Source of the DNA: Saccharothrix sp.
Lineage (GTDB): Bacteria > Actinomycetota > Actinomycetes > Mycobacteriales > Pseudonocardiaceae
DNA length: 64,000 nt
Assembly (NCBI RefSeq): GCF_031180885.1
Contig: NZ_JAPSLK010000017.1
Location: forward strand, 62,001-126,000
Direction of reading: 5' to 3'
Below the pieces are notes generated by a model. The model ran no database searches, had not been told where the DNA came from, and saw only the letters and a list, made by a program, of their open reading frames with translations. Position 1 is the first letter of the stretch. The number at the start of each line of letters is the position of its first letter. Position numbers and translations under genes: made by a program. Below, one piece after another: positions 22,254 to 39,444 of the stretch.

Positions 22254-22269
22254 ATACTGTATACAATCT
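22254..22269. promoter_or_regulatory. Operator motif copy A (ATACTGTATACAATCT)
   Basis: Near-palindromic GTATAC core in the 81-base gap between divergent fdsG and the MFS gene. Thirteen or more of 16 positions match copies at 26972 and 36868. It is the likely binding site of the FCD-type GntR protein encoded at 35543-36271. Confidence 0.65.
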
Positions 22270-22289
22270 GCAAGGTGGGTGATCCGCTC

Positions 22290-23543
22290 ATGCAGGCACA
22301 CCACGTCACCGACATGTACGGCCGCCGCTACCGCATCGGCGAGACCGACCGCGAACTCCTCGGCCGCCCCCGCTCCTGGACGACCTGGCTCACCACCACC
22401 GCGATGCTCGTCACGGGCATCGGCCAGTACGGCTTCGGCGCCCTCGTCCCCGCCCTGTCGGCCCGCTGGGGCCTGGTCGAGGTGTGCTGGGCCTTCGCCC
22501 TGTGGACCGCCTGCCAGGCGGGCGTCGCCTACCCCGCCGCCCGGTTCCGGCACGTCCTCGGCCCGGCCCGCGCGCTGCCGCTCGGCGCGGTGCTGAGCGC
22601 GATCGGCCTGCTCGCCCTCGCCCACGCCGACACCCTGCCGACCCTCTACCTCGGCTACGGCCTCATCGGCGGACTGGGCGCGGGCCTGGTCTACGCGACC
22701 TGCGTGGGCACCGCCGTCCGCTGGTTCCCCGACCGCACCACCAGCCGCATCTCCCTGGTCACGGCCGCGTTCGCACTCGGCGGGGTCCCGTTCCTGCCGG
22801 TGGCCGGGCACCCCGCCGCACTGGACGTCGCCGCCCTCCTCACCCTGGTCGTGGTCACCGCCTGCGGCCTGCCGTTGCGCGACCCGCCGCCGCACTGGTG
22901 GCCGCCCGACGTCGACCCGCGCCGCCGCGCGTTGACCCACCGCACCAACCGGCCCGCCATCCGCCCCTTCGCCCCGGCCGAAGCCCTGCGCAGCGGCACC
23001 CTCGCCCCGCTGTTCCTCACCGTCACGGCCGCCGCCGCGGTGTCGCTGTTCGACTTGGTCTTCCTGGCCGTGCCGGGACACCTGCCGACCCTCGCCGTCC
23101 TCGCCGCCGCGACCGCCCTCGGCAGGCCCGCGGCGGGCCGGCTCTCCGACCGCATCGGCCGCCGCCGCACCCTCCGCCTCGCCCTGGCCACTGGCGGCGT
23201 GGCACAGCTCGTGATCTTGTCAGGACAGGACTCGCTCCCGATCCTCATGGTCGGCGCGGCCCTGGCCGGGCTGGGCACGAGTTGCTGCTACGCCCTCCTG
23301 GTCAACCTGGTCCGCGAGTACTTCGGCGAGGACACCGCACCGCTCAACTTCGCCGTCATCTACAGCGCCAAGGCGGTCGGCGGTGTGCTCGGCGTCGGCC
23401 TGGCCTCGATCCTCGTCACGCACCAGGGCTACGCACCCGCGTTCCTGACCGCGGCGGCCCTCGGCCTGGCGGGCGCGGCGCTCGGTGGCCGGCTCAGCCA
23501 CCCCGGCCGGCCCCGCGGACTCCTGCCCAGCGAGGCGTCGTGA
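22290..23543 (+). CDS. MFS transporter, oxalate/formate antiporter (OFA) type
   Basis: 417 aa, about 12 membrane segments. OFA-like features: the ARWG element after TM1 (SARWGLVEV), the TM5-6 loop with YATCVGTAVRWFPDR, and LSDRIGRRR in the central loop. The start ATG at 22290 is preceded by an AAGGTGG run; an in-frame GTG at 22275 is possible. It is divergent from fdsG across an operator, and followed by a coupled small gene and fdhD. The likely cargo is formate, oxalate or a related small carboxylate; the sequence alone does not decide. Confidence 0.85.
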   Translation: MQAHHVTDMYGRRYRIGETDRELLGRPRSWTTWLTTTAMLVTGIGQYGFGALVPALSARWGLVEVCWAFALWTACQAGVAYPAARFRHVLGPARALPLGAVLSAIGLLALAHADTLPTLYLGYGLIGGLGAGLVYATCVGTAVRWFPDRTTSRISLVTAAFALGGVPFLPVAGHPAALDVAALLTLVVVTACGLPLRDPPPHWWPPDVDPRRRALTHRTNRPAIRPFAPAEALRSGTLAPLFLTVTAAAAVSLFDLVFLAVPGHLPTLAVLAAATALGRPAAGRLSDRIGRRRTLRLALATGGVAQLVILSGQDSLPILMVGAALAGLGTSCCYALLVNLVREYFGEDTAPLNFAVIYSAKAVGGVLGVGLASILVTHQGYAPAFLTAAALGLAGAALGGRLSHPGRPRGLLPSEAS

Positions 23544-23956
23544 CCACCCGGTTGCCGCACCTCGCACCCGGCCGCCACCCCACGCCCGCGCACGGCCGCT
23601 GCCTGCTCGAACTCGTGTCCCAACTCGCTGACGAGGTCTGGTCGGACCGCCCGGCCGCCGTGCACCCCGTCTTGGCGGCGGTCGCGCGCTGCGTCAACGA
23701 CCGCACCACCCCGCACGGCCGACAAGCCCTCTTACCGCTCGCGGTTCCCTTGCTGCACACCGCGAACGCGCCCGCCCACGCGATCGTCGACCACTGCCTG
23801 CGCACCGCAGGCTTAAAGAAGCGTTGGTGGACCGGGATCTTCCCCACCATGGCCGTGGCACGCGCGGTCCGTCGCCTGAACACCGACGAAGCGCTCCGGC
23901 GCCTGCTCACCGAATGCGTGCACCTGAGCCGAAAGGACCCCACATGGGCAGAGTGA
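23540..23956 (+). CDS. Hypothetical 138-aa protein in the formate locus
   Basis: Not assignable to a known function. 138 aa, alpha-helical, basic, no signal. It shows a pattern I associate with anonymous actinomycete proteins: [35 protein letters not shown] and then a Leu-rich region. The GTG at 23540 overlaps the MFS stop by 4 bases, and its own stop lies 10 bases inside fdhD, so it is translationally locked between a carboxylate transporter and the FDH maturation factor. A role in formate dehydrogenase assembly or regulation is only an inference. Confidence 0.72.
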
Positions 23957-24768
23957 CCAGCAGGCGGCGCGTGGTGCGGCTGGTGGACGGCGTCGCGCGC
24001 GCCCGACCGGACACGCTCACCGTCGAGGAACCGCTGGAGATCCGGGTCGCGGGCAAGCCGTTGTCGATCACCATGCGCACCCCGGGCGGCGACTTCGACC
24101 TGGCGGCGGGCTTCCTGGTCAGCGAAGGGGTGGTGCGCGCGCCCGACGACATCGCCGCGATCCGGTACTGCGCCGGGGCCACCGACGACGGCTCCAACAC
24201 GTTCAACGTGCTGGACGTCGCCCTGGCCGAAGGCGTCGCCCCGCCGGACCCGTCGATCGAGCGCAACTTCTACATGACCTCGTCCTGCGGCCTGTGCGGC
24301 AAGGCGAGCCTCGATGCCGTGCGCACGACCGCCGCGTGGACCGTGGCGGAGGACCCGGTGGAGGTCGACATCGACACCCTGGCCGCGCTGCCCGACGAAC
24401 TCCGTGCCGCACAAAGGGTTTTCGACCGGACAGGCGGCCTGCACGCGGCCGGGCTGTTCACCGCCGGCGGCGAGCTGCTGTGCTTGCGGGAGGACGTCGG
24501 ACGGCACAACGCGGTCGACAAGGTGGTCGGCTGGGCGCTGCAGCACAGGGGATTGCCGTTGCGGGCGACGGTGTTGATGGTCAGCGGTCGGGCGTCGTTC
24601 GAGTTGGTGCAGAAGGCCGTGATGGCGGGGATTCCCGTGCTGGCAGCGGTGTCCGCGCCGTCCACGCTAGCCGTCGACCTCGCCGACGAGATGGGCATGA
24701 CGCTCGTCGGGTTCCTGCGTGGCACGTCGATGAACGTCTACAGTGGACGGCACCGCCTGGTCGGTTGA
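23944..24768 (+). CDS. fdhD: FdhD formate dehydrogenase accessory sulfurtransferase
   Basis: 274 aa. It carries the CxxC catalytic pair in TSSCGLCGK (about 113-121), the [12 protein letters not shown] motif and [13 protein letters not shown]. In E. coli FdhD moves sulfur from IscS to the molybdenum cofactor of formate dehydrogenase. Here it serves the fds enzyme encoded divergently. The ATG at 23944 lies within the end of the preceding gene. The stop falls inside a terminator hairpin. Confidence 0.95.
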
Positions 24769-24784
24769 CGCCGACCAGGCGGTG
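24751..24784. terminator. Strong bidirectional hairpin between fdhD and sucD
   Basis: 14-bp perfect stem CACCGCCTGGTCGG / CCGACCAGGCGGTG with a 6-base loop. It contains the fdhD stop codon and ends 6 bases before the sucD stop on the other strand. Confidence 0.75.
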
Positions 24785-24790
24785 CGCCGG

Positions 24791-25705
24791 TCACGCCAGC
24801 ACTTCGCGGAGCAGCCGCGCGGTCTCGCTGGGCGTGCGTCCCACCCGGACCCCGGCCGCCTCCAGGGCTTCCGCCTTGGCCTGCGCGGTGCCCGCCGAGC
24901 CGGACACGATCGCGCCCGCGTGGCCCATGGTCCGGCCCTCGGGCGCGGTGAACCCGGCGACGTAGCCGACGACCGGCTTGGTCACGTGCTCCCGGATGTA
25001 CGCGGCGGCCCGCTCCTCGGCGTCCCCGCCGATCTCGCCGATCAGGACGATCGCCGCCGTGTCGGGGTCGTCCTCGAAGGCGGCCAACGCGTCGATGTGG
25101 GTGGTGCCGACGATCGGGTCGCCGCCGATGCCGATGGCGGTGGAGAACCCGACGTCCCGCAGCTCGTACATCAGCTGGTAGGTCAGCGTGCCGGACTTCG
25201 ACACCAGACCGATCGGGCCGTGACCGCAGATGTCGTCGGGGATGATGCCCGCGTTGGACTGGCCGGGGCTGATGATGCCGGGGCAGTTCGGGCCGATGAT
25301 CCGGGTCCGGTTGCCCGTCGCCACGGCGTGCGCCCAGAACCCGGCGGTGTCGTGCACCGGCACGCCTTCCGTGATCACGACCGCCAGCCCGATGCCCGCG
25401 TCGATCGCCTCCACCACCGCACCGCGGGTGTGCGCGGGCGGCACGAAGATCACGGTCACGTCCGCGCCGGTGGCCTCCATCGCCTCGGACACGGACCCGA
25501 ACACCGGCAGCACTGCTTGCCACGGGGCACTCGCACCCGAGCCGCCGTCGAAGTCGAAGGTCACCTTCTCGCCCGCCTTGCGCGGGTTCACCCCGCCCAC
25601 GACCTGCGTGCCGGACTTCAGCATCCGTCTGGTGTGCTTGGACCCCTCCGCGCCGGTCATGCCCTGGACGACCACTTTGCTGTGCTGGTCGAGGAAGACA
25701 GCCAT
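24791..25705 (-). CDS. sucD: Succinate-CoA ligase (ADP-forming) alpha subunit
   Basis: 304 aa. A CoA-binding Rossmann domain ([10 protein letters not shown] at the start) is followed by the ligase domain, with the phosphorylated His in MGHAGAI (about 250) and the GEIGGDAEE motif. Two of the usual landmarks, IGPNCPGI and SKSGTLTYQ, are intact, so it should be active. Its ATG directly abuts the sucC stop. Location in this island, rather than with other TCA genes, suggests a dedicated isozyme for CoA-thioester supply. Confidence 0.93.
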
Positions 25706-26866
25706 TCAGACCTCCCGGGAAGCGAGCCGCGCGGCCCGGTCGGCCGCGTCGTCCATCGTGTCGACCACGGTCACCAGCGGGTGGTCCGCCTCGGCGAGGA
25801 TGCGCCGACCCTCCGCCACGTTGTTCCCGTCCAAGCGCACCACCAGCGGCTTGGTCGCGGTCGGACCCAGCACGTCCAGCGCCCGCACGATCCCGTCCGC
25901 CACCGCGTCGCACGCCGTGATGCCGCCGAAGACGTTGACGAACACGCTCCGCACGTCCGGGTCGTTGAGGATGACGTCGAGCCCGTCGGCCATCACGGTC
26001 GCCGACGCGCCGCCGCCGATGTCGAGGAAGTTCGCCGGCCGCACACCGCCGTGGGCCTCACCCGCCCGCGCCACCACGTCCAAAGTGGACATGACGAGCC
26101 CCGCCCCGTTGCCGATCACGCCGACCTGGCCGTCCAGCTTGACGTAGTTGAGGCCCCTGTCCTTCGCCTCGGCCTCCAACGGGTTCTCGGCCCGGCGGTC
26201 CGCCAGTGAGGCGTGCCCGGGGTGGCGGTAGGCGGCGTTGCCGTCCAAGGTCACCTTGCCGTCGAGGGCGACCACCGACCCGTCCTCGGTGCGCACCAAC
26301 GGGTTCACCTCGACCAGCGTCGCGTCCTCCGCGACGAACGCCCGCCACAGCTTGACCAGCACGTCGGCGACCTGGTCGGCCACCTCGGGCGGGAACTTCG
26401 CCGCGGTGACGATCTCGTGCGCCTTGGCCAGGTCCACGTCCGTCACCGGCAGGCGCACGAGCGCGTCCGGCCGGGTGGCCGCGACCTGCTCGATGTCCAT
26501 GCCGCCCGCCACGGACGCCATCGCCAGGAACGTCCGGTTGGCGCGGTCGAGCAGGAAGGCCACGTAGTACTCCTCGGCGATCGCGCTCGCCTCGACCACC
26601 AGGACCTCGCGCACCCGGTGGCCCTTGATGTCCAAGCCCAGGATCGAATCGGCCACCGCCTGCGCCTCCGGAGGCGTGCGGGCGAGCTTCACGCCGCCCG
26701 CCTTACCCCGCCCACCCGTCTTGACCTGCGCCTTCACCACTACGGGCAGCCCGAGCAGTTCGGCGGCACCGCGCGCGCCGGCCGGGGTGGTGGCGAGCAC
26801 GCCGCGCGGCACGGGCACGCCGTGCGCGACGAACAGGTCTCTGGCCTGGTGTTCGTAGAGGTCCAC
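25706..26866 (-). CDS. sucC: Succinate-CoA ligase (ADP-forming) beta subunit
   Basis: 386 aa ATP-grasp subunit. [12 protein letters not shown] at the start, [17 protein letters not shown] nucleotide loop (about 45), VEVNPLV (about 200) and the GGxxxCD element [13 protein letters not shown]. It interconverts succinate, CoA and ATP with succinyl-CoA. First gene of sucCD, divergent from the ThDP gene across 198 bases that include an operator copy. The start ATG at 26866 is preceded by GGAGAGGA on its strand. Confidence 0.93.
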
Positions 26867-26971
26867 GGCAGACGTCCTCTCCGAGGGAGGTTCCAGTCGG
26901 GCTCAGGGGGATTTCGGGTCCGGTCGGCTCTGGACATCGGCCCGAACTAGGCGTAAGCATATGGCTACCCC

Positions 26972-26987
26972 ATACGGTATGCAATCT
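26972..26987. promoter_or_regulatory. Operator motif copy B (ATACGGTATGCAATCT)
   Basis: Lies about 106 bases upstream of sucC and 78 bases upstream of the ThDP gene, in their shared divergent promoter region. It differs from copy A at two positions. Confidence 0.65.
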
Positions 26988-27064
26988 ACAACGGGCCGGT
27001 TCCAGTGTCGGAAGCCCCGCTCCTCTCGGTGCTGCCGACCGCGATCGAAGGAGTTGACCAGCAC

Positions 27065-28780
27065 ATGACGCGGACAGCGACCGAGGCGGCAACCGGCGGG
27101 TCCGATGCGGGGCCGGCACTGATCTCCGGCGGCCACCTGGTGGCCAAGGCGCTCAAGGCCGAGGGCATCGACACGATCTTCACCCTGTGCGGCGGCCACA
27201 TCATCGACATCTACGACGGCTGCGTGGACGAGGGCATCACCGTCATCGACGTCCGCCACGAGCAGGTCGCCGCGCACGCCGCCGACGGCTACGCCCGCAT
27301 CACCGGCAAACCCGGCTGCGCGGTCGTCACCGCCGGCCCCGGCACCACCGACGCCGTCACCGGCGTGGCCAACGCGTTCCGCGCGGAGAGCCCGATGCTG
27401 CTCATCGGCGGCCAGGGCGCGTTGACCCAGCACAAGATGGGGTCACTGCAAGACCTGCCGCACGTGGACATGATGACCCCGATCACCAAGTTCGCCGCGA
27501 CCGTCCCGTCCACGGCGCGCGTGGCGGACCTGGTGTCCATGGCCTTCCGGGAGTGCTTCCACGGCGCGCCCGGCCCGTCGTTCCTGGAGATCCCGCGGGA
27601 CGTCCTCGACGCGTCCGTGCGGTTGGACCAGGCCCGCATCCCGGAAGCAGGCCGCTACCGCGCGTCCACGCGCAGCGCCGGCGACCCGGAGTCGGTCGAG
27701 AAGCTGGCGGACCTGTTGGTGCACGCCAAGAAGCCGGTCGTGCTGTTCGGCAGCCAGGTCTGGACGACCCGCGCCACCGACCCGGCGATCGAACTGGTCC
27801 GCACCCTCAACATCCCCGCCTACATGAACGGCGCCGGCCGTGGCACGCTCCCGCCCGGCGACCCGCACCACTTCCAGCTCTCCCGCCGCTACGCGTTCGA
27901 CAACGCCGACGTCATCGTCATCGTCGGCACCCCGTTCGACTTCCGGATGGGCTACGGCCGCAGGCTCTCCGCGCAGGCCACCGTCGTGCAGATCGACTTG
28001 GACTACCGGACCGTCGGCAAGAACCGGGACATCGACCTCGGCATCGTCGGCGACGCGGGCCTGGTGCTCGCCGGCGTCACCGCCGCCGCGTCCGGCCGCA
28101 CCGACAACGGCGCGGTCGGACGCAAGCCGTGGCTGGAAGAACTCCAAGCGGTGGAGGAGAAAGCGCGCGCCAAGCGGCTGCCGCAGCTGATGTCGACGGC
28201 CTCGCCGATCCACCCTTACCGGCTCGTGCACGAGATCAACGAATTCCTCACCGAGGACTCGATCTACATCGGCGACGGCGGCGACATCGTCACGTTCTCC
28301 GGCCAGGTCGTGCAGCCCAAGTCGCCCGGCCACTGGATGGACCCCGGCCCGCTGGGCACGCTCGGCGTCGGCGTCCCGTTCGTGTTGGCGGCCAAGCACG
28401 CCCGCCCGGACAAGGAGGTCGTCACGCTGTTCGGCGACGGCGCGTTCAGCCTCACCGGCTGGGACTTCGAGACGCTGGTGCGGTTCAACCTCCCGTTCGT
28501 CGGCATCGTCGGCAACAACTCGTCGATGAACCAGATCCGCTACGGCCAGGCGCAGAAGTACGGCACGGCCCGGGAACGCGTCGGCAACACCCTCGGCGAC
28601 GTCCGCTACGACGAGTTCGCCCGGATGCTCGGCGGCTACGGCGAGGAGGTCCGCGACCCCGAGGACATCGCGCCCGCCCTGCGCCGGGCCCGCGAGTCCG
28701 GCCTGCCGTCGCTGATCAACGTGTGGGTCGACCCGGACGCGTACGCGCCGGGAACCATGAACCAGACCATGTACAAGTAG
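27065..28780 (+). CDS. ThDP-dependent oxalyl-CoA decarboxylase / 2-hydroxyacyl-CoA lyase family enzyme
   Basis: 571 aa, three-domain ThDP enzyme: PYR domain with the activating Glu in [14 protein letters not shown] (about 67), central domain, then PP domain with [11 protein letters not shown] ending in VGNNSSMN (about 457-488). It sits 11 bases upstream of frc, which points to a formyl-CoA-producing lyase. As I recall them, canonical oxalyl-CoA decarboxylases have Tyr-Glu at the active-site loop, whereas here the loop reads SLQDLPHVD, closer to 2-hydroxyacyl-CoA lyases. Both oxalyl-CoA decarboxylation and 2-hydroxyacyl-CoA cleavage remain possible. The ATG at 27065 follows GAAGGAG by 11 bases. 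Confidence 0.8.
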
Positions 28781-28791
28781 GGGAGCCCCGC

Positions 28792-30021
28792 ATGGGAAAG
28801 GCGTTGGAGGGCATACGAGTCCTCGACCTGACGCATGTCCAATCAGGACCGTCGGCGACCCAGTTGCTGGCGTGGCTGGGCGCGGACGTCATCAAGGTGG
28901 AAGCACCCGGCCGCGGTGACGTGACGCGCGGCCAGCTGCGCGACCTTCCCGGCGTCGACAGCCTGTACTTCACGATGCTCAACGCCAACAAGCGCAGCAT
29001 CACGCTGAACATGAAGAGCGACGAGGGCAAGGCCGTGTTCGGCCAGCTCGTCACCACCGCCGACGTCCTGGTGGAGAACTTCGGTCCCGGTGTGGTCGAC
29101 CGGTTCGGGTTCACCTGGGAACGCCTCCAGGAACTCAACGAGGGCCTGGTCTACGCGTCCATCAAGGGTTTCGGCCCCGGCCGGTACGCGGACTTCAAGG
29201 CCTACGAGGTGATCGCGCAGGCGATGGGCGGCTCGATGTCCACCACCGGTTTCGAGGAAGGCCCGCCGCTGGCCACCGGGGCCCAGATCGGCGACTCGGG
29301 CACGGGCATCCACCTGGTCGCCGGCATCCTGGCCGCGCTGTACCAGCGGACGCGCACCGGCAAGGGCCAACGGGTGCAGGTCGCCATGCAGGACGCGGTG
29401 CTCAACCTGTGCCGGGTCAAGCTGCGCGACCAGCAGCGGCTCGCCCACGGCCCGCTGGGGGAGTACCCGAACGAGGTGTTCGGCGACGCCGTTCCCCGCT
29501 CCGGCAACGCCTCCGGCGGCGGCCAGCCCGGCTGGGCGGTGCGCTGCGCGCCCGGCGGCCCCAACGACTACATCTACGTGATCATCCAGCCCGTCGGCTG
29601 GGCGCCCATCACCAGGCTGATCGGCCGGCCGGAACTGGCCGACGACCCGGCGTGGGCCACCCCGGAAGCCCGGTTGACCAAGCTGGACAAGGCCTTCGCG
29701 CTCATCGAGGAGTGGACCGAGAAGCACACCAAGTGGGAGGTCATGGAGCAGCTCAACGCCCACGACATCCCGTGCGGGCCGATCCTGTCCACCAAGGAGC
29801 TGATCGAGGACGAGACGCTGCGCGAACTCGGGACCGTGGTGGAGGTCGAGCACCCCGAGCGCGGCGCGTACAAGACCGTCGGCAGCCCGCTCAAGCTCTC
29901 CGCCTCGCCGGTGGACGTGGGCCGCTCGCCGCTGCTGGGCGAGCACAACGCGGAAGTCCTCGCCGAACTCGGCTACCTGCCCGAGCAACTGGAGCGGCTC
30001 AAGGCCGCCGGTGCCATCTGA
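28792..30021 (+). CDS. frc: Formyl-CoA:oxalate CoA-transferase (class III, CaiB/BaiF)
   Basis: 409 aa. Near full-length similarity to Oxalobacter Frc is visible: FTHVQ-like [35 protein letters not shown]. The catalytic Asp is in GDSG (Asp168, aligning with Asp169 of the Oxalobacter enzyme), and the glycine loop SGGGQPGW (about 243) is present. It moves CoA from formyl-CoA onto oxalate or another acid and frees formate, feeding the fds enzyme. The start ATG lies 11 bases after the ThDP gene stop, with GGGGAG upstream. Confidence 0.93.
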
Positions 30022-30030
30022 GGAGACGTC

Positions 30031-32163
30031 ATGGCGGACTACGACCGGGCGGCGGTCGACCGGATCATCGCGGCGGTGGCGGCCGAGGGCCGCACCACCC
30101 TGACCGCGCCCGAGGGCAGGCTGGTGTGCCAGGCGTACGGCATCCCCACGCCGGCCGAGGGCCTGGCGGCCACGGCGGAGGAGGCGGTCGCGCTGGCCGA
30201 GGACATCGGGCTGCCCGTCGTGCTCAAGATCGTCTCGCCGGACGTCCTGCACAAGACCGAGGCGGGCGGTGTCCTGGTCGGCCTGGGCACCGCCGCCGAG
30301 GTCGCGGCCGGCTTCGAGACGATCGTGGCGAACGCCCGTGCGTACAAGGCGGACGCCGAAATCGTCGGTGTGCAGGTGCAGAAGTTGTTGACCGGCGGCC
30401 AGGAAGTGATCGTCGGCGCGGTCACCGACCCCACGTTCGGCAAGATCGTGGCGTTCGGCCTGGGCGGCGTGCTGGTGGAGGTGCTGAAGGACGTCACGTT
30501 CCGCCTCGCGCCGACCACTCTCGAAGAAGCCTCCTCTATGGTCGACGGCATCGCGGCGGCCGAGGTGCTGCGCGGTGTGCGCGGCGCGCCCCCGGCGGAC
30601 CGGGAGGCCCTGGCGGACGTCATCCGCCGCGTCGGCGACCTGGTCACCGACTTCCCGCAACTGTCCGAAGTGGACCTCAACCCGATCCTGGCCACCCCGG
30701 ACGGTGCGACGGCCGTGGACGTGCGGATCATCGTGGACCCCGAGCCCGCGCCCGAGCCGGTCCGGTTCAGCCAGGAGCAGATCCTGGCCGCGATGAACCG
30801 GATCATGAAACCGGCCGCCGTCGCGGTGATCGGGGCGTCCGCCGAGCCGGGCAAGATCGGCAACTCGGTCATGCGCAACCTGGTCGACGGCGGCTACCGG
30901 GGCGAGATATACCCGATCAACCCCAAATCCGACGAAATCCTCGACCGCAAGGCGTACCGGAGCATTTCGGACGTTCCGGGTGACGTGGACGTGGCGGTCT
31001 TCGCGATCCCGGCCAAGTTCGTGCCGGCCGCGCTGGAAGAGGTCGGCGCGAAGGGTGTCGCAGGGGCGATCCTCATCCCCTCCGGCTTCGGTGAGACCGG
31101 CAACCACGAGTTGCAGGCCGAGGTCGTGGCCATCGCCCGCAAGCACGGCGTGCGCATCCTCGGGCCGAACATCTACGGCTACTACTACACACCGGAGAAC
31201 CTGTCGGCTACCTTCTGCACTCCGTACGACGTCAAGGGCGGTGTGGCCCTGTCCTCGCAGAGCGGGGGGATCGGCATGGCGATCCTCGGCTTCAGCCGGT
31301 CGGCGAACATCGGCGTGTCCTCGATCGTCGGCGTGGGCAACAAGGCCGACCTGGACGAGGACGACCTGCTGACGTTCTTCGAGCAGGACGAGAACACCTC
31401 GCTCATCGCCATGCACCTGGAAGACCTCAAGGACGGCCGGGCGTTCGCCGAGACCGCGAAACGGGTCTCCGCGAAGAAACCCGTGGTCGTGCTGAAGGCC
31501 GGCCGCACCGACCAGGGCGCCAAGGCCGCCGGTTCGCACACGGGGGCGTTGGCGGGTAACGACAAGGTCTACGACGACATCCTCCGGCAGAGCGGCGTCA
31601 TCCGCGCGCCCGGCCTGAACGACATGCTGGAGTACGCGCGCGGCGTCCCGTTGCTGCCCACGCCGCAGGGGGAGAACGTCGTCATCATCACCGGCGCGGG
31701 CGGGTCCGGTGTGCTGCTGTCCGACGCGTGCGTGGACAACGGCTTGTCGTTGATGGAGATCCCGCCCGACCTGGACGCGGCGTTCCGCGAGTTCATCCCG
31801 CCGTTCGGCGCGGCGGGCAACCCGGTGGACATCACCGGCGGCGAGCCGCCGTCCACCTACCGCAACACCATCGCGCTGGGCCTGTCGGACGAACGGGTGC
31901 ACGCCCTCGTCCTCGGGTACTGGCACACCATCGTCACCCCGCCGATGGTGTTCGCCGAGCTGGTCGTGGACGTGGTGCGGGAGTTCCGCGACAAGGGGGT
32001 GCACAAGCCGGTCGTCGCCTCGCTCTCGGGTGATGTCGAGGTCGAGGAGGCGTCCGAACACCTGTACCGGCACGGGATCGTCGCCTACCCGTACACCACG
32101 GAGAAGCCGGTCGCCGTGCTGGGCGCCAAGTACCGCTGGGCCCGCTCCGCCGGGCTGCTCTGA
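30031..32163 (+). CDS. ADP-forming acyl-CoA synthetase (ATP-grasp + CoA-ligase fusion)
   Basis: 710 aa. An N-terminal ATP-grasp domain (about 1-235, with KIVSPDVLHKTEAGGV) is fused to CoA-binding (AVAVIGASAEPGKIG, about 266) and ligase domains. The phosphorylatable His is intact in GSHTGALAG (about 500), unlike in the Pat protein at 1813-4464, so this one should be catalytic. In the same operon as the ThDP lyase and frc, 9 bases after frc. It probably primes the pathway by making the acid's CoA thioester; the acid is unknown. Confidence 0.87.
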   Translation: MADYDRAAVDRIIAAVAAEGRTTLTAPEGRLVCQAYGIPTPAEGLAATAEEAVALAEDIGLPVVLKIVSPDVLHKTEAGGVLVGLGTAAEVAAGFETIVANARAYKADAEIVGVQVQKLLTGGQEVIVGAVTDPTFGKIVAFGLGGVLVEVLKDVTFRLAPTTLEEASSMVDGIAAAEVLRGVRGAPPADREALADVIRRVGDLVTDFPQLSEVDLNPILATPDGATAVDVRIIVDPEPAPEPVRFSQEQILAAMNRIMKPAAVAVIGASAEPGKIGNSVMRNLVDGGYRGEIYPINPKSDEILDRKAYRSISDVPGDVDVAVFAIPAKFVPAALEEVGAKGVAGAILIPSGFGETGNHELQAEVVAIARKHGVRILGPNIYGYYYTPENLSATFCTPYDVKGGVALSSQSGGIGMAILGFSRSANIGVSSIVGVGNKADLDEDDLLTFFEQDENTSLIAMHLEDLKDGRAFAETAKRVSAKKPVVVLKAGRTDQGAKAAGSHTGALAGNDKVYDDILRQSGVIRAPGLNDMLEYARGVPLLPTPQGENVVIITGAGGSGVLLSDACVDNGLSLMEIPPDLDAAFREFIPPFGAAGNPVDITGGEPPSTYRNTIALGLSDERVHALVLGYWHTIVTPPMVFAELVVDVVREFRDKGVHKPVVASLSGDVEVEEASEHLYRHGIVAYPYTTEKPVAVLGAKYRWARSAGLL

Positions 32164-32210
32164 AGGGGGAAATCCGCCGTCGTCGTGCACAACCTCACGG
32201 GAGGTCCGTT

Positions 32211-33728
32211 GTGGATACACCCAATCCGCCGGGACAGCTGTCCGGCGGGGACGCCACCCCGGGAACCGTAGCGCCGTCACCGTCCTCCGAGCGCGTGTGG
32301 CGGGCGGGCCGGCTGGAGCCGATGCCCATCCGGAAACTGCCGGACGCGCCACCGTCCGTCCACGTCCTCGGCCCGACGGTGTTCCTCGTCGCGCTGGGCG
32401 TGGGAATGGGCGAGTCCTACATGTGGCCGCGCCTGGTGCTGCTGTTCGGTCCCGAGATCCGGTGGCTGTTCCTGATCGGCGTGACGCTGCAAGCCGTGGT
32501 GATGCTGGAGATGGCCCGCTACGCGATGGCCACCGGCGAGAGCATCTTCTTCGGCGCGGCCCGCGTCTTCAAGCCGATCATGTGGTTCTTCTTCACCGTC
32601 GCGATCCTGGTCTACATCTGGCCCGGCCACCTCTCCGCGGGCGCCGCCGCGCTGGAGGAGATGACCGGCGTGCCGTGGACGGTCTCGGCGTGCGTCGGTC
32701 TGATCCTGGTCGGGGTGGTGTTCAGCCTGGCCAAGGTGATCTACAACCTGCTGGAGAACGTGCTGTCGCTGCTGATCGGCCTGCTGGTGGTCGGCACGGC
32801 GGTGGTGGCCGCGATGGTGGGCACGTGGTCCGACGTCGTCTCGACGATCACCGGCATGTTCCACTTCGGCTACTTCCCGTCGGAGGCGTTGTCGGCCACG
32901 TGGTTCCCGATCGTCGTGGGGTCCATCGCGTTCGCCGGGCCGTCGGGGATGCAGCAGATGTGGTACACGCTGCACCTGCGCGACAGCGGCGCGGGCATGG
33001 GCGCGCACATCCCGGCCGTGCGCGGTCTCCGGCACGCCGGCGAGGAAGAGCAGATGCCTTCGCGGGGCTTCATGTTCGACACCGACGACGCCGACGAGAT
33101 GCGCAAGTGGAAGGGCTGGCGGCGGTGGGTCACGTTCGACGCGCTGCTGTTGTTCTGGGGCGTGACGATGCTGGTGACGGTGTCGTTCACGGTGCTGGCG
33201 CAGGCGGCGAGCCGGCAGAGCCCGAACGTCAAGGCGCTGCTGGAGTCCGGTGAGCGGGAAGCGGCGTTGAACGCGATGTCCGACTCGTTCGCGGCGGCCG
33301 GTGGTCCCGCGTTGGGGATGGTGTTCCTCGGGTTCATCGCGTTGATCGGGTTGAACGCCACGCTGGGGTTGTTCGACTCGTTCTCGCGGGGTCAGGCGGA
33401 CATGACGTATCACTTCGTGCGCGGGGCGAAGCGGTTCCGGATGTCCCACCTCTATGCGGGATTCCTGTGGGGTGTCATCGTTTTCGGCATCCTGGTCCTG
33501 TTGTTCGGGCCGGCGGACGGTCCGGGGGCGATCCTGGACGTGCTGGCGTTCCTGTCGACGTTCGCGATGGGCGCGTACTGCGTGGTGTTGTTGTTGGTGA
33601 ACAACAGGATGCTGCCCAAGCCGATCCGGCCGCGGTTGGCGACCAACGTGATCATCGGGTTCGGCGCGGTGTTCTACCTCGGGATGCTGCTCTACAGCCT
33701 GGTCCGGTTCGGCGTGGTGGTGAGCTGA
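32211..33728 (+). CDS. Nramp-like (APC superfamily) membrane transporter
   Basis: 505 aa with an N-terminal disordered ~45 residues and about 11-12 membrane helices. TM1 (FLVALGVGMGESYMWP) and the following helix (LQAVVMLEMARYAMATGES) resemble Nramp transporters, but the DPGN metal motif is replaced by GMGE. A cytoplasmic insert around 270-300 is rich in charge. Divalent-metal transport is therefore doubtful. Placed in the ThDP/frc operon (GTG start 47 bases after the synthetase), it may bring in the pathway's carboxylate substrate. Confidence 0.78.
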   Translation: MDTPNPPGQLSGGDATPGTVAPSPSSERVWRAGRLEPMPIRKLPDAPPSVHVLGPTVFLVALGVGMGESYMWPRLVLLFGPEIRWLFLIGVTLQAVVMLEMARYAMATGESIFFGAARVFKPIMWFFFTVAILVYIWPGHLSAGAAALEEMTGVPWTVSACVGLILVGVVFSLAKVIYNLLENVLSLLIGLLVVGTAVVAAMVGTWSDVVSTITGMFHFGYFPSEALSATWFPIVVGSIAFAGPSGMQQMWYTLHLRDSGAGMGAHIPAVRGLRHAGEEEQMPSRGFMFDTDDADEMRKWKGWRRWVTFDALLLFWGVTMLVTVSFTVLAQAASRQSPNVKALLESGEREAALNAMSDSFAAAGGPALGMVFLGFIALIGLNATLGLFDSFSRGQADMTYHFVRGAKRFRMSHLYAGFLWGVIVFGILVLLFGPADGPGAILDVLAFLSTFAMGAYCVVLLLVNNRMLPKPIRPRLATNVIIGFGAVFYLGMLLYSLVRFGVVVS

Positions 33729-34216
33729 TGCGGGATCGGCTGGAACTCGCGGTGCCGGGTGCGGTGGTCGGCGCGGTCGGCGGGCTGGTCGCCGGCGTGC
33801 TGGCGGCGGTTGTCGGACAGCCTTACGCTTGGGCGGCAACGGTTTCGCTCGGGTTGGCGGTGCCGTTGGGGGTGTTCGGCGGGGTCTTGGGGCTGCTGCT
33901 GGGGTCGGGGCGGGTGCGGATGGGGGTGTTCGCGCCGGTCGCGTTGTTCTGGCTGGTGGGGTTCCCCCTGGCGCGGTTGGTCGGTGAGGTGTTCACGGGT
34001 GCGGTGCTCGGTGGTCGGGTGCTGCCGGACGACGTGGTCGGGTTCCTGGCGTACCAGGGGATCGTGAGCTTCGGGTGGTCGCTGGGGTTCCTGTGGCTGC
34101 ACGAGCGGATCGCGCCGCACTGGCTGGACCGGGTGCGCTCGGGGAACCCGTTGGCACAGCGGTGGTTCGAGCGGTACGCGGCGCACGCCCGGGTGCTCCG
34201 CGCGGCCCGGAGGTGA
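33728..34216 (+). CDS. Small membrane protein, unknown function
   Basis: 162 aa with four hydrophobic segments, a Gly/Val/Leu-rich N-terminal half and a C-terminal amphipathic, Arg-rich tail (LAQRWFERYAAHARVLRAARR). The ATG at 33728 overlaps the transporter stop by one base (TGATG), so it is coupled and may be an accessory subunit of that transporter. I do not recognise the family. Codon bias supports coding. Confidence 0.72.
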   Translation: MRDRLELAVPGAVVGAVGGLVAGVLAAVVGQPYAWAATVSLGLAVPLGVFGGVLGLLLGSGRVRMGVFAPVALFWLVGFPLARLVGEVFTGAVLGGRVLPDDVVGFLAYQGIVSFGWSLGFLWLHERIAPHWLDRVRSGNPLAQRWFERYAAHARVLRAARR

Positions 34217-34220
34217 CGAG

Positions 34221-35213
34221 ATGCAGCTGCCCACCTGGGTGTGGCTGACGACGATGGGCGCGATCGCGCTGGTGATCGCGTTCGACTTCTACCTGGTGGC
34301 GCGGAACCCGCGGGAGCCGTCGTTCCGCGAGTCGCTGCTGTCGGTGTCGGTGTACGTGGGGCTGGCGGTGCTGTTCGGGCTCGGCGTGGTGGTGTTCGCC
34401 GGGCCGCGGTTCGGCGGCGAGTTCTTCGCCGGGTGGATCACCGAGTACTCGCTGAGCGTGGACAACCTGTTCGTGTTCGTGCTGATCATGACGCGGTTCG
34501 CGGTGCCGCGGGAGTACCGGCAGAAGGTGCTGATCATCGGTGTCGTGCTGGCGTTGGTGCTGCGGGCGGTGTTCATCGCGTTGGGCGCCGAGGCGATCTC
34601 GCGGTTCGACTGGCTGTTCTACGTGTTCGGGGCGTTCCTGATCTTCACCGCGTGGAAGCTGTTGCGGCAGGACGACTCCGAGGCCGCGGAGTTCCACGAG
34701 AACGCGGTGCTGCGCGTGGTCCGCCGCGTGGTGCCGACCGCTCCGGCGTACCACGGCGCGCGGTTGACGGCCGTGGTGTCCGGCAAGCGGGTGGTCACGC
34801 CGATGCTGGTGGTGATGATCGCGGTCGGGACCACGGATTTGCTGTTCGCGGTGGACTCGATCCCGGCGATCTTCGGCCTGACCAAGGAGCCCTACCTGGT
34901 GCTGACCGCGAACGCGTTCGCGCTGATGGGTCTGCGCCAGCTGTTCTTCCTGGTGGGCGGGCTGCTGGACCGGTTGGTCCACCTGGGCAAGGGCCTTGCG
35001 GTGATCTTGGCGTTCATCGGGGTCAAGCTCATCTTCGAGGCGTTGCACCACCACGGCGTCCCGTGGGCGCCGGAGATCCCGATCCTGCTGTCGCTCGGGG
35101 TCATCCTGGTGGTGCTGCTGGTCACGACCGTCGCGAGCCTGATGGCCTCGGCGCGGGCCGGGACGGCGGCCGTTGTCGCTGTCGCCGAGCAGCCGCCGGA
35201 CTCGGACGCGTGA
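34221..35213 (+). CDS. TerC-family integral membrane protein
   Basis: 330 aa, about nine membrane segments. It has the paired acidic motifs of TerC/Alx proteins: IAFDFYLV in TM1, SLSVDNLFVFVLIM, and TTDLLFAVDSIPAIFG in the second half. TerC proteins are linked to Mn2+ export and to metallation of secreted proteins. It begins 4 bases after the preceding gene, so it shares the transcript, but a metabolic link to the island is not obvious. Confidence 0.92.
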   Translation: MQLPTWVWLTTMGAIALVIAFDFYLVARNPREPSFRESLLSVSVYVGLAVLFGLGVVVFAGPRFGGEFFAGWITEYSLSVDNLFVFVLIMTRFAVPREYRQKVLIIGVVLALVLRAVFIALGAEAISRFDWLFYVFGAFLIFTAWKLLRQDDSEAAEFHENAVLRVVRRVVPTAPAYHGARLTAVVSGKRVVTPMLVVMIAVGTTDLLFAVDSIPAIFGLTKEPYLVLTANAFALMGLRQLFFLVGGLLDRLVHLGKGLAVILAFIGVKLIFEALHHHGVPWAPEIPILLSLGVILVVLLVTTVASLMASARAGTAAVVAVAEQPPDSDA

Positions 35214-35220
35214 CCTGGGT

Positions 35221-35254
35221 CGTCGGGCGGCGCGGTGAGGGGCGCCGCCCGACG
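35221..35254. terminator. Bidirectional hairpin after terC
   Basis: 12-bp perfect stem CGTCGGGCGGCG / CGCCGCCCGACG with a 10-base loop, between the convergent terC and 57-aa genes. Confidence 0.7.
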
Positions 35255-35255
35255 A

Positions 35256-35429
35256 TCACACGGTGGTCTTGTCCTGGTCGCGCCGGTCGAGGAAGTCCTC
35301 GATGTCGGTGACGGTGTTCCGGCGTTCGGCTTCCCGCGCGGCGGCCAGGCCGATGCCGATCCGGCGGCCGTCGGCGCTGAAGCCGTGGTCACGGGTGAGG
35401 GCGTGCTTGAGCTGCTGCCATGCGGACAT
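35256..35429 (-). CDS. Hypothetical 57-aa protein
   Basis: 57 aa, charged, starting MSAWQQLKHALTRDHGF and continuing IGIGLAAAREAERRNTV with an acidic C-terminal helix. No family recognised. The ATG at 35429 follows an AGAGG run. Upstream on its own strand is a full copy of the island operator (35473-35495), suggesting it belongs to the same regulon. The frame can be extended to 35465, without support. Confidence 0.55.
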   Translation of the reverse strand: MSAWQQLKHALTRDHGFSADGRRIGIGLAAAREAERRNTVTDIEDFLDRRDQDKTTV

Positions 35430-35472
35430 GGTTCGGGTACCTCTTCGTGTGCTAGGGGGCTTCACATGCAGA

Positions 35473-35495
35473 ATACAGACTTTTGTATACAGAAT
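35473..35495. promoter_or_regulatory. Operator motif copy C
   Basis: Contains two ATACAGA half-sites around TTTTGTATAC. On the minus strand it reads CTGTATACAAAAG, matching copies A, B and E at the CTGTATRCAA core. It lies 44 bases upstream of the 57-aa gene and just beyond the gntR stop. Confidence 0.6.
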
Positions 35496-35542
35496 GTCGG
35501 CCAGGTGGCCACCATCACCTCATCGGGGTGGCCGGCGGCTGG

Positions 35543-36271
35543 TCAGTTCTCGGTGGCCTGCTGGTAGGCCTGACGGGTGCGCTCGGTGTGCTCGCCCATG
35601 AGGCGACCGGCGGTCTCGGCGTCGTTGGCCTTGACGGCCTCGATGAGGGCGGCGTGCTCGTCCCACGCGTCCTTGCCCCTCGTGAGGGCGAGGGGGGCGT
35701 AGTACCAGCGGACGCGGCGGTCGACGGTCGCGATCATCTCGGCCAGGACCGCGTTGCCGGCGATCTTGGTGATGTGGGCGTGGAAGGCGGCGTTCGCGGT
35801 GACGAGCTGCTCGGCGTCCTCGTCCTTGAGGGCGTTGACGCCGTTGGCGTGGAGGCGGAGGAGGTCGTCGACGTCGGCCTGGGTCGCGCGCTCGGCGGCG
35901 AGCTTGGCCGAGTAGGTCTCAAGGACGCCGCGGACGCCGAGGAGCTGGTCGGCTTCCTCGTCGGTGGGGGTGTGGACGAAGGCACCCTGGGCGGGGCGAA
36001 GGTCGACCCAGCCTTCGGTCTGGAGTCGCTGGAGGGCTTCGCGGACGGGTTGGCGGCTGACGCCGAGGTGCTCGGCGAGGTCGATCTCGACGAGGTGTTG
36101 GCCGGGCTGGAGGGTGCGGTTGACGATCAGCTCCAAGAGCGCGTCGTACACGGCTTGGCGCAGGGGAGCGGGCCTCTCGACCTTCCGAGCGGCCGCCCCG
36201 CTGAGCGACTCACGAGCCGCACGACGAGCGGCGGTCCCCGCACTGGTTGGCGGCGACTTGGGCTGACTCAC
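35543..36271 (-). CDS. GntR-family regulator, FCD (FadR-type) ligand domain
   Basis: 242 aa. After a ~40-residue basic, Ala/Arg/Ser-rich tail comes a winged helix (about 45-105: LVEIDLAEHLGVSRQPVREALQRLQTEGWV). An all-helical FCD domain follows, with its metal/ligand His pattern (AAFHAHI, DEHAALIEAV, GEHTERTRQ). The GTG at 36271 is preceded by GGAGG; the frame extending to 36340 reads through the operator. Probable regulator of the formyl-CoA/formate island, since its motif copies lie at every divergent promoter there, including its own. Confidence 0.9.
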   Translation of the reverse strand: MSQPKSPPTSAGTAARRAARESLSGAAARKVERPAPLRQAVYDALLELIVNRTLQPGQHLVEIDLAEHLGVSRQPVREALQRLQTEGWVDLRPAQGAFVHTPTDEEADQLLGVRGVLETYSAKLAAERATQADVDDLLRLHANGVNALKDEDAEQLVTANAAFHAHITKIAGNAVLAEMIATVDRRVRWYYAPLALTRGKDAWDEHAALIEAVKANDAETAGRLMGEHTERTRQAYQQATEN

Positions 36272-36313
36272 GTGCCCTCCTAGGCGGGTTGTCGGGAATG
36301 CCCGGCTTTCAGC

Positions 36314-36336
36314 ATACAGATTTTGGCATACAAAAA
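36314..36336. promoter_or_regulatory. Operator motif copy D (gntR promoter)
   Basis: ATACAGATTTTGGCATAC followed by an A-run. It aligns over 23 bases with copy C and lies about 43 bases upstream of the gntR start, as expected for autoregulation. Confidence 0.6.
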
Positions 36337-36552
36337 GCAATCGCCACCTACCTCACCTGCCACTTGCCGCGCCTGCCGCCCAACCCACCGCCACACCCCA
36401 CCGCCGGTCATCGCGGCGACTACCCGCCGCCACCGCTACTACCCCCAACCCCCCCATCGCTGCCGCCCGCCCGCCGCCCCAGCCGCCGCCCCTGGGGGTC
36501 GCCGCTGCCAGCCCGCCGCCGCTGCTGCTGGCCGCCGCCACCCGCCGCCGTC

Positions 36553-36785
36553 GTTGCCCGCCGCCGTCGTTGCCCGCCGCCGTCGTTGCCCGCCGCCGTC
36601 GTTGCCCGCCGCCGTCGTTGCCCGCCGCCGTCGTTGCCCGCCGCCGTCGTTGCCCGCCGCCACGCGCCGTCGCCGCTAGCCGCCGTTGCCCGCCGCCACG
36701 CGCCGTCGCCGCTAGCCGCCGTTGCCCGCCGCCGTCGTTGCCCGCCGCCACGCGCCGTCGCCGCTAGCCGCCGTTGCCCGCTGCC
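36553..36785 (+). repeat. Minisatellite: 16-bp and 36-bp tandem repeats
   Basis: Six perfect 16-bp units GTTGCCCGCCGCCGTC start at 36553, 36569, 36585, 36601, 36617 and 36633. Two 36-bp units (the same GTTGCCCGCCGCC head plus a CACGCGCCGTCGCCGCTAGC tail) follow at 36649 and 36685, then one 16-bp unit at 36721, one 36-bp unit at 36737 and a partial unit at 36773. The flanks (36353-36552, 36785-36835) are degenerate CCGCC-rich sequence. The 16-bp period is not a multiple of three, so translations cycle through frames. It is non-coding and lies between gntR and the next operon. Confidence 0.9.
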
Positions 36786-36867
36786 ACTGCCACTACCCGC
36801 TGCCGCCGCCGCCCGCCGCCGCCACGTTCGGCCCGGTTGGGGTATCGCCTTACCGCCGGTCGACAGG

Positions 36868-36883
36868 ATACTGTATGCAATTA
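36868..36883. promoter_or_regulatory. Operator motif copy E (ATACTGTATGCAATTA)
   Basis: Ends 20 bases before the ATG at 36904 of the reductase-aldehyde dehydrogenase-acyl-CoA dehydrogenase operon. It matches copy A at 13 of 16 positions, and its GTATGC core matches copy B. Confidence 0.65.
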
Positions 36884-36903: not shown

Positions 36904-37881
36904 ATGAGAGTCGCAGTTCTCGGGGCCGGGGCCATCGGGGCCTACGTCGGCGCTGCGCTGCACCGAGGTGGCGCGGAAGTTCATCTGATCGCTCGAGGTG
37001 CGCACCTTCAGGCCATGCAGCACAAAGGGGTTCGGGTGCGCAGTGCGCGCGGGGACTTCAGCGCGAAGCCGCACGCGACCGCCGACCCCACCGAAGTCGG
37101 CCCGGTCGACTTCGTGTTCCTCGGACTGAAAGCCCACCAGTACGCGAGTTGCGGGCCCCTGCTCGAACCGCTCCTCGGACCGGACACCGCCATCGTCGCC
37201 GCCCAGAACGGCATCCCCTGGTGGTACTTCCACGGCCTCGCCGGCCACCCCCTGGAAGGCACCCGCATCGAAGCCGTCGACCCCCGAGGCTCGGTCACCG
37301 CCGTCCTGGAAACCCAGCGGGCGATCGGGTGTGTCGTCTACTGCTCCACCGAAATCGAAGCACCCGGTGTCATCCGGCACGTCGAAGGCACGCGGTTCTC
37401 GCTCGGGGAGCCCAACCGCACAGTCTCCGAACGGGTCAAACTCCTCAGCGAAGCCATGATCGCGGGCGGCCTGAAGGCGCCGGTCGAGCGGGACCTCCGG
37501 GAGGACATCTGGGTCAAGCTCATGGGCAACGTCGCCTTCAACCCACTCAGCGCCCTCACCCGCGCGACCATGGCCGAGATCTGCGCCCACCGCGACACCC
37601 GTGAACTCGTCGCCCTCATGATGGCCGAGACGATCGCCGTCGCCCGCGCGGTCGGGTGTGAACCGAAGGTGTCCATCGAGAAGCGGATCGACGGGGCTCG
37701 GCGGGTCGGGGACCACAAGACCTCCATGCTCCAGGACCTGGAGGCGGGCAAGGCGTTGGAGATCGACGCCATCATCGGCGCGGTCGTCGAGATCGCGGGG
37801 TTGACCGGGGTCGCCGCGCCCACCCTGCGCAGCGTCTACGCGGCCACGGACCTGTTGGCGCGCAAAGCAGTCACCCTCTGA
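36904..37881 (+). CDS. 2-dehydropantoate 2-reductase family (ApbA/PanE) oxidoreductase
   Basis: 325 aa. N-terminal NADP Rossmann motif VLGAGAIGAYVG, central AQNGIPWW, and a C-terminal catalytic region with the conserved Lys in LREDIWVKLMGNVAFNPLSALT. True PanE makes pantoate, but many family members act on other 2-oxo or 2-hydroxy acids, and the operon (with aldehyde and acyl-CoA dehydrogenases) suggests catabolism. The open frame runs back to 36247 through the minisatellite; the ATG at 36904 follows GCGAGGGA and an operator. Confidence 0.85.
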   Translation: MRVAVLGAGAIGAYVGAALHRGGAEVHLIARGAHLQAMQHKGVRVRSARGDFSAKPHATADPTEVGPVDFVFLGLKAHQYASCGPLLEPLLGPDTAIVAAQNGIPWWYFHGLAGHPLEGTRIEAVDPRGSVTAVLETQRAIGCVVYCSTEIEAPGVIRHVEGTRFSLGEPNRTVSERVKLLSEAMIAGGLKAPVERDLREDIWVKLMGNVAFNPLSALTRATMAEICAHRDTRELVALMMAETIAVARAVGCEPKVSIEKRIDGARRVGDHKTSMLQDLEAGKALEIDAIIGAVVEIAGLTGVAAPTLRSVYAATDLLARKAVTL

Positions 37882-39434: not shown

Positions 39435-39444
39435 GGAGGCCGTG

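Follow-up and report, generated by a model that had tools for sequence, protein, structure and literature searches.

Known systems and the Saccharothrix locus

Bacterial oxalate use is important for soil carbon and mineral cycling. Here we describe five putative operators, the gene of an FCD-type GntR regulator (gntR) that lies among them, and the surrounding gene cluster in Saccharothrix sp. (NCBI RefSeq assembly GCF_031180885.1, contig NZ_JAPSLK010000017.1), and we compare them with the closest described systems. The window is the whole stretch of 64,000 nucleotides that was analyzed (positions 62,001 to 126,000 of the contig), and coordinates are those of the window.

On the side of regulation, Atu1419 of Agrobacterium fabrum is a repressor of the VanR group of FCD-type GntR proteins with the operator core TGTATACA, and gel shifts showed binding of its ATGTATACAT palindrome, which at two genes overlaps the -10 box (PMC7797058). 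The Saccharothrix locus has in common with Atu1419 the FCD and GntR domains, a set of three His plus Asn/Asp, the TGTATACA core, and several operator copies at the regulator's own and a neighbouring promoter (PMC7797058). Unlike in Atu1419, to which the window regulator is 24-25% identical in the fold comparison, the pathway is a different one, and pairs of boxes at a 14-bp offset occur at gntR and at a small open reading frame (ORF).

On the side of metabolism, the apbA2 gene of Cupriavidus necator, located near frc-oxc, is 51% identical to panE2 of Methylorubrum extorquens, and its deletion slows growth on oxalate (PMC7486775). PanE2 has been characterised as a putative oxalyl-coenzyme A (oxalyl-CoA) reductase and used to turn oxalyl-CoA into glyoxylate (PMC8411744). 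The window shares with this pathway Frc, a PanE/ApbA-family reductase, and formate dehydrogenase (PMC7486775, PMC8411744), and, as in the glycerate pathway of these two organisms, glyoxylate-to-glycerate genes are found beside the reductase in Amycolatopsis. Unlike in C. necator and M. extorquens, another subfamily of thiamine diphosphate (ThDP) enzymes takes the decarboxylase position and a GntR operator links the operons; the string "gntr" is absent from the main text of PMC7486775. The Escherichia coli oxc-frc genes have the Frc family and the ThDP superfamily in common with the window. They differ in that no gntR is present among the 12 features of the region viewed, and the window ThDP enzyme is only 27% identical to E. 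coli Oxc and has GSLQD aligned with GDYEE. Finally, the 2-hydroxyisobutyryl-CoA lyase locus of Actinomycetospora chiangmaiensis has a related ThDP enzyme, an adjoining GntR gene, and formyl-CoA as product (PMC7176365, PMC8760513), but its neighbouring genes differ and the window enzyme is without Glu at the place of the catalytic E493.

We consider it probable that the five copies are operators of the protein encoded at 35543-36271, a repressor that also controls its own gene, and that the local regulon they make up serves oxalate catabolism; binding, repression, ligand, and substrate are what we infer from the observed sites, their conservation, their co-occurrence with gntR, and the gene families. 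A local FCD-GntR regulon is of a known kind, and the uncommon part is the likely non-canonical oxalyl-CoA decarboxylase.

Putative operator copies in the window

The first-pass annotation had reported five promoter copies of a near-palindromic motif with the core CTGTATRCAA, and all five were found where it had placed them:

Operator A: 22254..22269, + strand; ATACTGTATACAATCT, with core CTGTATACAA at 22257-22266, an exact CTGTATRCAA match; between fds and the gene of an MFS transporter
Operator B: 26972..26987, + strand; ATACGGTATGCAATCT, with core CGGTATGCAA at 26975-26984, one mismatch; between sucCD and the ThDP-frc operon
Operator C: 35469..35492, - strand; double box at a 14-bp offset, with core CTGTATACAA at 35483-35492, exact; upstream of a 57-aa ORF
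Operator D: 36310..36333, - strand; double box TTGTATGCCA-AAAT-CTGTATGCTG at a 14-bp offset, weaker; gntR promoter
Operator E: 36868..36883, + strand; ATACTGTATGCAATTA, with core CTGTATGCAA at 36871-36880, exact; before the reductase operon

As had been claimed, operators A, B, and E are nearly identical, with ATACKGTATRCAAT common to all three, and each of the five copies stands before the start of a gene or operon, D being at the promoter of gntR itself. Operator A is flanked by the divergent starts of fdsG (22208) and the MFS gene (22290), and operator B by those of sucC (26866) and the ThDP gene (27065). The distance to the downstream start is 51 bp for C (57-aa ORF) and 50 bp for D (gntR), and the centre of E lies 28 bp 5' of the reductase start. 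The earlier reading was supported, and it was refined in that copy C belongs to the small conserved ORF and that C and D are double sites. GTA-type boxes recur at offsets of 7 or 14 bases, namely at 0/7/14 in A and B, at 0/7 in E, and at 0/14 in C and D; the better box of D has two mismatches to the CTGTATRCAA core.

Genome-wide, the motif is above background. The exact core occurs three times in the 9.46-Mb genome, every time inside this cluster, and the chance of three independent uniform places all falling in the 14.6-kb stretch is 3.7e-9. When up to one mismatch was allowed, 0.72 matches were expected in the window and five were found, namely A, B, C, E, and an unrelated place at 47740. 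The 16-mer form has four matches in the whole genome at zero or one mismatch, all in the cluster, and none at two mismatches; at three mismatches there are 19 matches, two of them the window's own sites on the opposite strand, versus 12 for the backward control. A matrix built from the five copies gives them 22.0-26.2 bits, and the next place in the window, with the other strand of these same sites excluded, scores 12.9 bits. The controls in the genus and the family (below) agree with these results, and an artefact of chance or composition was ruled out by permuted, reversed, and mismatch controls.

The intergenic region between gntR and the reductase gene, with operator D on one side and operator E on the other, is filled by a GC-rich tandem repeat array at 36458-36823 (units of 16, 32, 36, and 48 bases among others). 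Most relatives viewed have a different sequence there.

Conservation of the motif in related loci

Conservation was analyzed in 40-kb neighbourhoods from eight genomes of the genus (38 kb in one) and in a partly overlapping named set of 61 loci, of up to ~20 kb, around gntR homologues. Counts for the named set use 54 loci (L049-L102), seven distant or partial ones (L103-L109) being left out. At a threshold of at least 18 bits, the window-trained matrix detected 107 sites in the 54 loci (0.996 Mb), against a mean of 0.15 and a maximum of 1 for 20 column-permuted matrices; real and permuted counts were 132 and 1.15 at 16 bits and 103 and 0.15 at 20 bits. The threshold had first been set at 11 bits, which proved too permissive for a near-palindromic motif that overlaps its reversed matrix (282 versus 118 reversed-matrix matches), and was replaced by 18 bits with column permutation. 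In two loci a place fell within the acyl-CoA ligase gene, and in four there were places in unclassified positions.

Sites are kept upstream of orthologous operons, as the regulon proposal would predict. With the window included, a site within 420 bp upstream was found for all 36 reductase genes, 32 of the 37 ThDP genes, all five small ORFs, and 34 of the 38 gntR genes, some of these last sites belonging to the neighbouring reductase. Among MFS genes, 3 of 35 had an upstream site; most of the others adjoin gntR or sit in the frc operon in the loci viewed, and they are 34-42% identical to the MFS protein of the window. Of five further sites viewed, four precede an MFS gene of this type and one precedes ThDP-frc-MFS.

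Most Saccharothrix cluster loci have the recurrent boxes ACTCAATACTGTATACAATCTGCAAGG (MFS), ACCCCATACGGTATGCAATCTACAA (ThDP-frc/sucCD), and ATACTGTATRCAATCA (reductase), with genes 56-94% identical to those of the window; the MFS box of L039 reads CTGTATACGA. Four genomes with fds farther from the MFS gene have a separate ATACGGTATACAGT ~25-40 bp 5' of fdsG, as judged by comparing coordinates. The letters of operator A are identical in four other Saccharothrix loci (L034, L036, L038, and L042), operator B is kept in Saccharothrix, Amycolatopsis, and Fodinicola loci, and a site like operator C stands upstream of the small ORF in L049-L052. Operator D was present in all eight Saccharothrix relatives viewed (altered in L045) and also in Amycolatopsis. 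Its pattern, GYATRCNAAANNCTGTAT, occurs in 30 of the 54 loci plus the window, at 34 places. Of these, 30 lie 18-65 bp before gntR and three precede the small ORF; the remaining one, in L083, is unassigned, the gntR match of that locus being split between frames.

Across genera, the motif or its variant CTGTAGACAA was found in Amycolatopsis, Streptomyces, Saccharopolyspora, Fodinicola, and Nocardioides loci, the variant being the form carried by Streptomyces. A change in the recognition helix was considered as the source of this variant and rejected: the segment VSRQPVREAL is identical in both groups, and therefore no residue could be named. GTATAC-type boxes scoring 15-19 bits were also observed in Azospirillum (L163:4998, 5152, 6919, and 7788, near oxlT and the reductase) and in C. 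metallidurans (L160:9998 and 13416, near the reductase and the ThDP gene); these are possibly related operators in Proteobacteria.

Link between the motif and gntR

The proposal that gntR encodes the linked regulator is supported by co-occurrence. Within the genus, gntR is present in 9 of 25 genomes; seven of the nine contain a 14-mer form of the motif (up to one mismatch), all 16 genomes without gntR are devoid of it, and the reversed pattern is absent from all 25. Read from coordinates, 23 of the 27 genus matches lie inside the cluster. Of 297 genomes of the family, 118 have gntR, and 45 of these contain the exact 15-mer, which is absent from all of the 179 others (Fisher 1.9e-21, genome kinship ignored). 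The reversed pattern has no match, and 119 of the 123 sites are within 40 kb of gntR.

The regulator gene is likewise associated with the ThDP gene: both are present in 109 family genomes, gntR alone in nine, and the ThDP gene alone in two. On one contig in 104 of the 109, they are then always within 20 kb of each other. Four of the nine genomes with gntR and without the ThDP gene were viewed (G004, G007, G018, and G267). Two of them, G007 and G018, are also without the 14-mer and still have a D-type double site before gntR (altered in G007). Because this site persists at the gntR promoter in two genomes devoid of the ThDP gene, the motif appears tied to the gntR product.

The regulator and a proposed mechanism

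The likely binder of the sites is encoded by the following gene:

gntR, FCD-type GntR regulator: 35543..36271, - strand; PF07729 and PF00392 over cut-off

Scores of 67.5 bits for PF00392 (cut-off 27) and 90.8 bits for PF07729 (cut-off 24.3) indicate an N-terminal GntR winged helix-turn-helix and a C-terminal FCD domain. The structural model (mean predicted local distance difference test, pLDDT, 86.9) matches the FCD structures PmiR, Brucella GntR, VanR Atu1419, McbR, and TM0439, and the first four outrank FadR in the fold comparison; the protein probably belongs to the VanR group of FCD, the effector domain of which is without the extra helix of FadR. In the readable rows, as in a 20-sequence alignment, residues N160, H164, H206, and H228 do not vary, and by analogy they fit the three-His-plus-Asn metal set described for Atu1419 (PMC7797058). 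The ligand may be a metal-bound acid, with oxalate as a candidate.

According to the mechanism that we propose, the regulator would bind TGTATRCA-type boxes overlapping or just downstream of promoters and thereby block transcription, and a small pathway acid (oxalate or one of its products, for example glyoxylate or oxalyl-CoA) would enter the metal-type FCD pocket and cause release. The induced MFS transporter would take up oxalate, Frc and the ADP-forming ligases would load it with CoA, and the ThDP enzyme would decarboxylate oxalyl-CoA to formyl-CoA. Formate dehydrogenase with FdhD would oxidise formate, and the PanE2-type reductase would turn part of the oxalyl-CoA into glyoxylate. The sites are centred 28-67 bp upstream of the reductase start (36/36) and 28-32 bp upstream of the MFS start (the 3 of 35 genes with a site), so close to start codons that steric repression would suit.

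Genes of the cluster and evidence for an oxalate pathway

The genes of the cluster are the following:

fdsA, formate dehydrogenase alpha: 17444..20341 (start not settled), - strand; TIGR01591 930 bits, cut-off 666
fdsB, NuoF-like subunit: 20224..21750, - strand; PF01512 over cut-off, NuoF families below cut-off
fdsG, gamma subunit: 21747..22208, - strand; PF01257 over cut-off, NF004638 under its own (179 bits, cut-off 198)
MFS transporter, distant relative of oxalate/formate antiporters: 22290..23543, + strand; PF07690 over cut-off
fdhD, formate dehydrogenase accessory protein: 23944..24768, + strand; NF001943 398 bits, cut-off 269
sucD-type CoA ligase alpha: 24791..25705, - strand; NF004230 433 bits, cut-off 336
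sucC-type CoA ligase beta: 25706..26866, - strand; NF001913 502 bits, cut-off 370
ThDP enzyme, proposed non-canonical oxalyl-CoA decarboxylase: 27065..28780, + strand; below decarboxylase and lyase cut-offs
frc, formyl-CoA:oxalate CoA-transferase: 28777..30021, + strand; TIGR03253 657 bits, cut-off 504
ADP-forming acyl-CoA ligase: 30031..32163, + strand; PF19045, PF13549, and PF13607 over cut-off
Nramp-like transporter, probably in the same operon as ThDP-frc: 32211..33728, + strand; NF037982 over cut-off, Pfam Nramp below
TerC/Alx-family membrane protein: 34221..35213, + strand; TIGR03718 over cut-off
conserved 57-aa ORF behind operator C: 35256..35429, - strand; no family match
PanE/ApbA-family reductase, probable oxalyl-CoA reductase: 36904..37881, + strand; NF005089 453 bits, cut-off 223, PF02558 and PF08546 over cut-off
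aldehyde dehydrogenase family protein: 37893..39434, + strand; PF00171 over cut-off
acyl-CoA-dehydrogenase-like protein: 39442..40479, + strand; PF02771 over cut-off

The first-pass annotation had read these genes as a regulon for uptake, CoA activation, formyl-CoA release, and formate oxidation. Gene families and conserved sites support that reading, and the pathway can now be narrowed to what is most likely oxalate catabolism. A NAD-linked formate dehydrogenase set is present (alpha subunit, NuoF- and NuoE-like subunits, and FdhD), its small subunits being recognised by Pfam, with the NCBIfam models below cut-off. The frc gene is the only TIGR03253 copy over cut-off in the genome. The protein previously labelled a reductase could be specified as a PanE/ApbA-family member, and by family and gene context it is probably an oxalyl-CoA reductase of the PanE2/ApbA2 type.

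Reductase neighbourhoods in other organisms bear on this assignment. In Amycolatopsis sp. MtRt-6, the operon continues from the reductase gene into FDH-alpha-, NuoF-, and NuoG-like genes, behind which lie genes resembling those of hydroxypyruvate isomerase (hyi), tartronate-semialdehyde reductase, and glyoxylate carboligase; the carboligase passes NF008431 (895 bits, cut-off 791) and the others score below their cut-offs (651/666 for the formate dehydrogenase, FDH, alpha subunit). Six further loci with reductase homologues were viewed, from Ramlibacter, C. metallidurans, Nonomuraea, Azospirillum ramasamyi, Skermanella, and Vreelandella. Canonical Oxc and Frc are encoded nearby in Ramlibacter, and most of the window's cluster is present in Nonomuraea. 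The C. metallidurans locus combines GntR-like genes with homologues of sucCD, Frc, the ligase, and the ThDP enzyme (65.5%). The A. ramasamyi homologue lies one gene from an annotated oxlT, with gcl further on.

The 57-aa ORF had no family match and is 56-58% identical in Saccharothrix relatives. An ORF of ~138 aa at 23540-23956, between the MFS gene and fdhD, is without a Pfam match, and its position suggests a link to formate dehydrogenase. Neither DPGN nor MPH, which we take to be the Nramp motifs, was found in the Nramp-like transporter, the substrate of which may be other than a metal ion; its gene lies beside the ligase gene in Saccharothrix, Saccharopolyspora, and Nonomuraea.

The ThDP enzyme

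The active-site Tyr-Glu pair of MeOXC consists of Y134 and E135 (PMC8411744). Judging from its sequence, the window ThDP enzyme is without this canonical pair. In E. coli Oxc the pair is presumably located in the GDYEE stretch. Placing the decarboxylase residues A415, Y497, and S568 on the ThDP enzyme was dropped as unsafe, and its AlphaFold model, with a mean pLDDT of 58, was not used.

Canonical Oxc over cut-off was detected in four of the 297 family genomes and the ThDP gene in 111, with both present in three of those four. Two of the four were viewed (G267 and G213). In G267, an internal deletion has reduced the ThDP gene of the gntR-reductase-frc cluster to a remnant that covers residues 17-46 and 518-571 (L169:13092-13319) and still has the operator upstream. 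This single draft genome has two canonical oxc genes on contigs other than that of the gntR cluster. One of them, with its ATG at 9461, carries ATACTGCATACAATC (21.0 bits; L171:9382-9396) 64 bases upstream of that ATG; no site of at least 14 bits was found at the second, nor at the canonical copy of G213, a genome that also has the ThDP gene. Because an operator-bearing oxc accompanies a deleted ThDP gene in G267, there is good but single-case evidence that the ThDP enzyme and canonical Oxc fill the same role, with a possible natural replacement in this genome.

Alternatively, the regulon could be real and serve a 2-hydroxyacid, with the ThDP enzyme acting as a 2-hydroxyacyl-CoA lyase that yields formyl-CoA and an aldehyde, Frc recycling CoA, and the aldehyde dehydrogenase oxidising the aldehyde. 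The best solved-structure matches of the ThDP enzyme are indeed 2-hydroxyacyl-CoA lyase entries (7pt3 being, as we assume, the 2-hydroxyacyl-CoA lyase), it scores 366 bits with the actinobacterial lyase family NF058623 versus 263 bits with the oxalyl-CoA decarboxylase family NF006721, and an aldehyde dehydrogenase gene follows the window reductase. The Actinomycetospora lyase locus, moreover, also has a GntR gene (PMC7176365). However, the 366 bits are below the lyase cut-off of 600, and the catalytic E493 of the lyase, placed from primers quoted in PMC8760513, aligns with Ile. The Amycolatopsis operon viewed has glyoxylate-to-glycerate genes at the place of the window's aldehyde dehydrogenase, and in G267 it is a canonical oxalyl-CoA decarboxylase that bears the operator where the ThDP gene is deleted. 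We regard a lyase pathway as unlikely.

A broader proposal goes beyond oxalate catabolism under gntR control. According to it, the ThDP protein would represent a third class of oxalyl-CoA decarboxylases, as yet undescribed, which work without the Tyr-Glu pair and take the place of the canonical enzyme in actinomycetes and in some members of Cupriavidus, Caballeronia, and Phyllobacterium. The gntR product, in addition, would be a dedicated repressor sensing oxalate via a bound metal ion. We lean only slightly towards this combined proposal.

Weighing the proposed regulon

Several points weigh against an oxalate regulon under gntR control. The ThDP enzyme fails the oxalyl-CoA decarboxylase family TIGR03254 (243/739 bits), and the MFS transporter is below the antiporter cut-offs (TIGR00890 128/375 bits, TIGR04259 109/335). 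The oxalate model leaves unexplained the roles of the aldehyde dehydrogenase, acyl-CoA-dehydrogenase-like, Nramp-like, TerC, and small-ORF products, and neither frc nor oxc was seen nearby at two of the six reductase loci, Skermanella (which has a GntR gene and a transhydrogenase) and Vreelandella. The exact 15-mer is missing from 73 of the 118 family genomes with gntR, part of which may be explained by operator drift (compare the Streptomyces variant CTGTAGACAA). Four one-mismatch 14-mers lie outside the cluster in two Saccharothrix genomes (G006:C1:4408924, 5215450, and 8356486; G004:C4:477368), and these may be chance matches or further targets.

About as improbable as the lyase pathway is that the gntR product acts at the sites as an activator or with a dual effect. 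The sign of regulation is not readable from sequence, and the distance between sites and ThDP gene starts ranges from 32 to 386 bp. On the other hand, Atu1419 is a repressor (PMC7797058), and the site centres at the reductase and MFS genes are so near the start codon that they are too close for a usual upstream activator.

Less probable again is that another regulator binds the sites and that gntR is merely one of its targets. A second GntR-like gene is near in L169 and L160. Nevertheless, none of the 179 genomes without gntR has the 15-mer, two genomes devoid of the ThDP gene keep the D-type site next to gntR, and a characterised family member has the same core (PMC7797058).

Conservation of the boxes by shared ancestry or chance only can be given next to no weight, since, although the loci are related and the counts not independent, permuted and reversed controls are near zero, the boxes stay while flanking intergenic DNA varies in sequence and length, and G267 has a copy at a canonical decarboxylase gene on another contig.

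Implications

A described regulator of the oxalyl-CoA pathway, or an oxalate regulon of this sort, was not found in the open literature among the matches listed, as judged by titles and the starts of abstracts. If true, our reading would provide a regulator, an operator, and its targets, and the operator could serve as a marker of oxalate genes in other genomes. It would also mean that there is a decarboxylase class below the current family cut-off; because this ThDP class scores below the canonical oxc cut-off, surveys with canonical oxc models could overlook the organisms that carry it.

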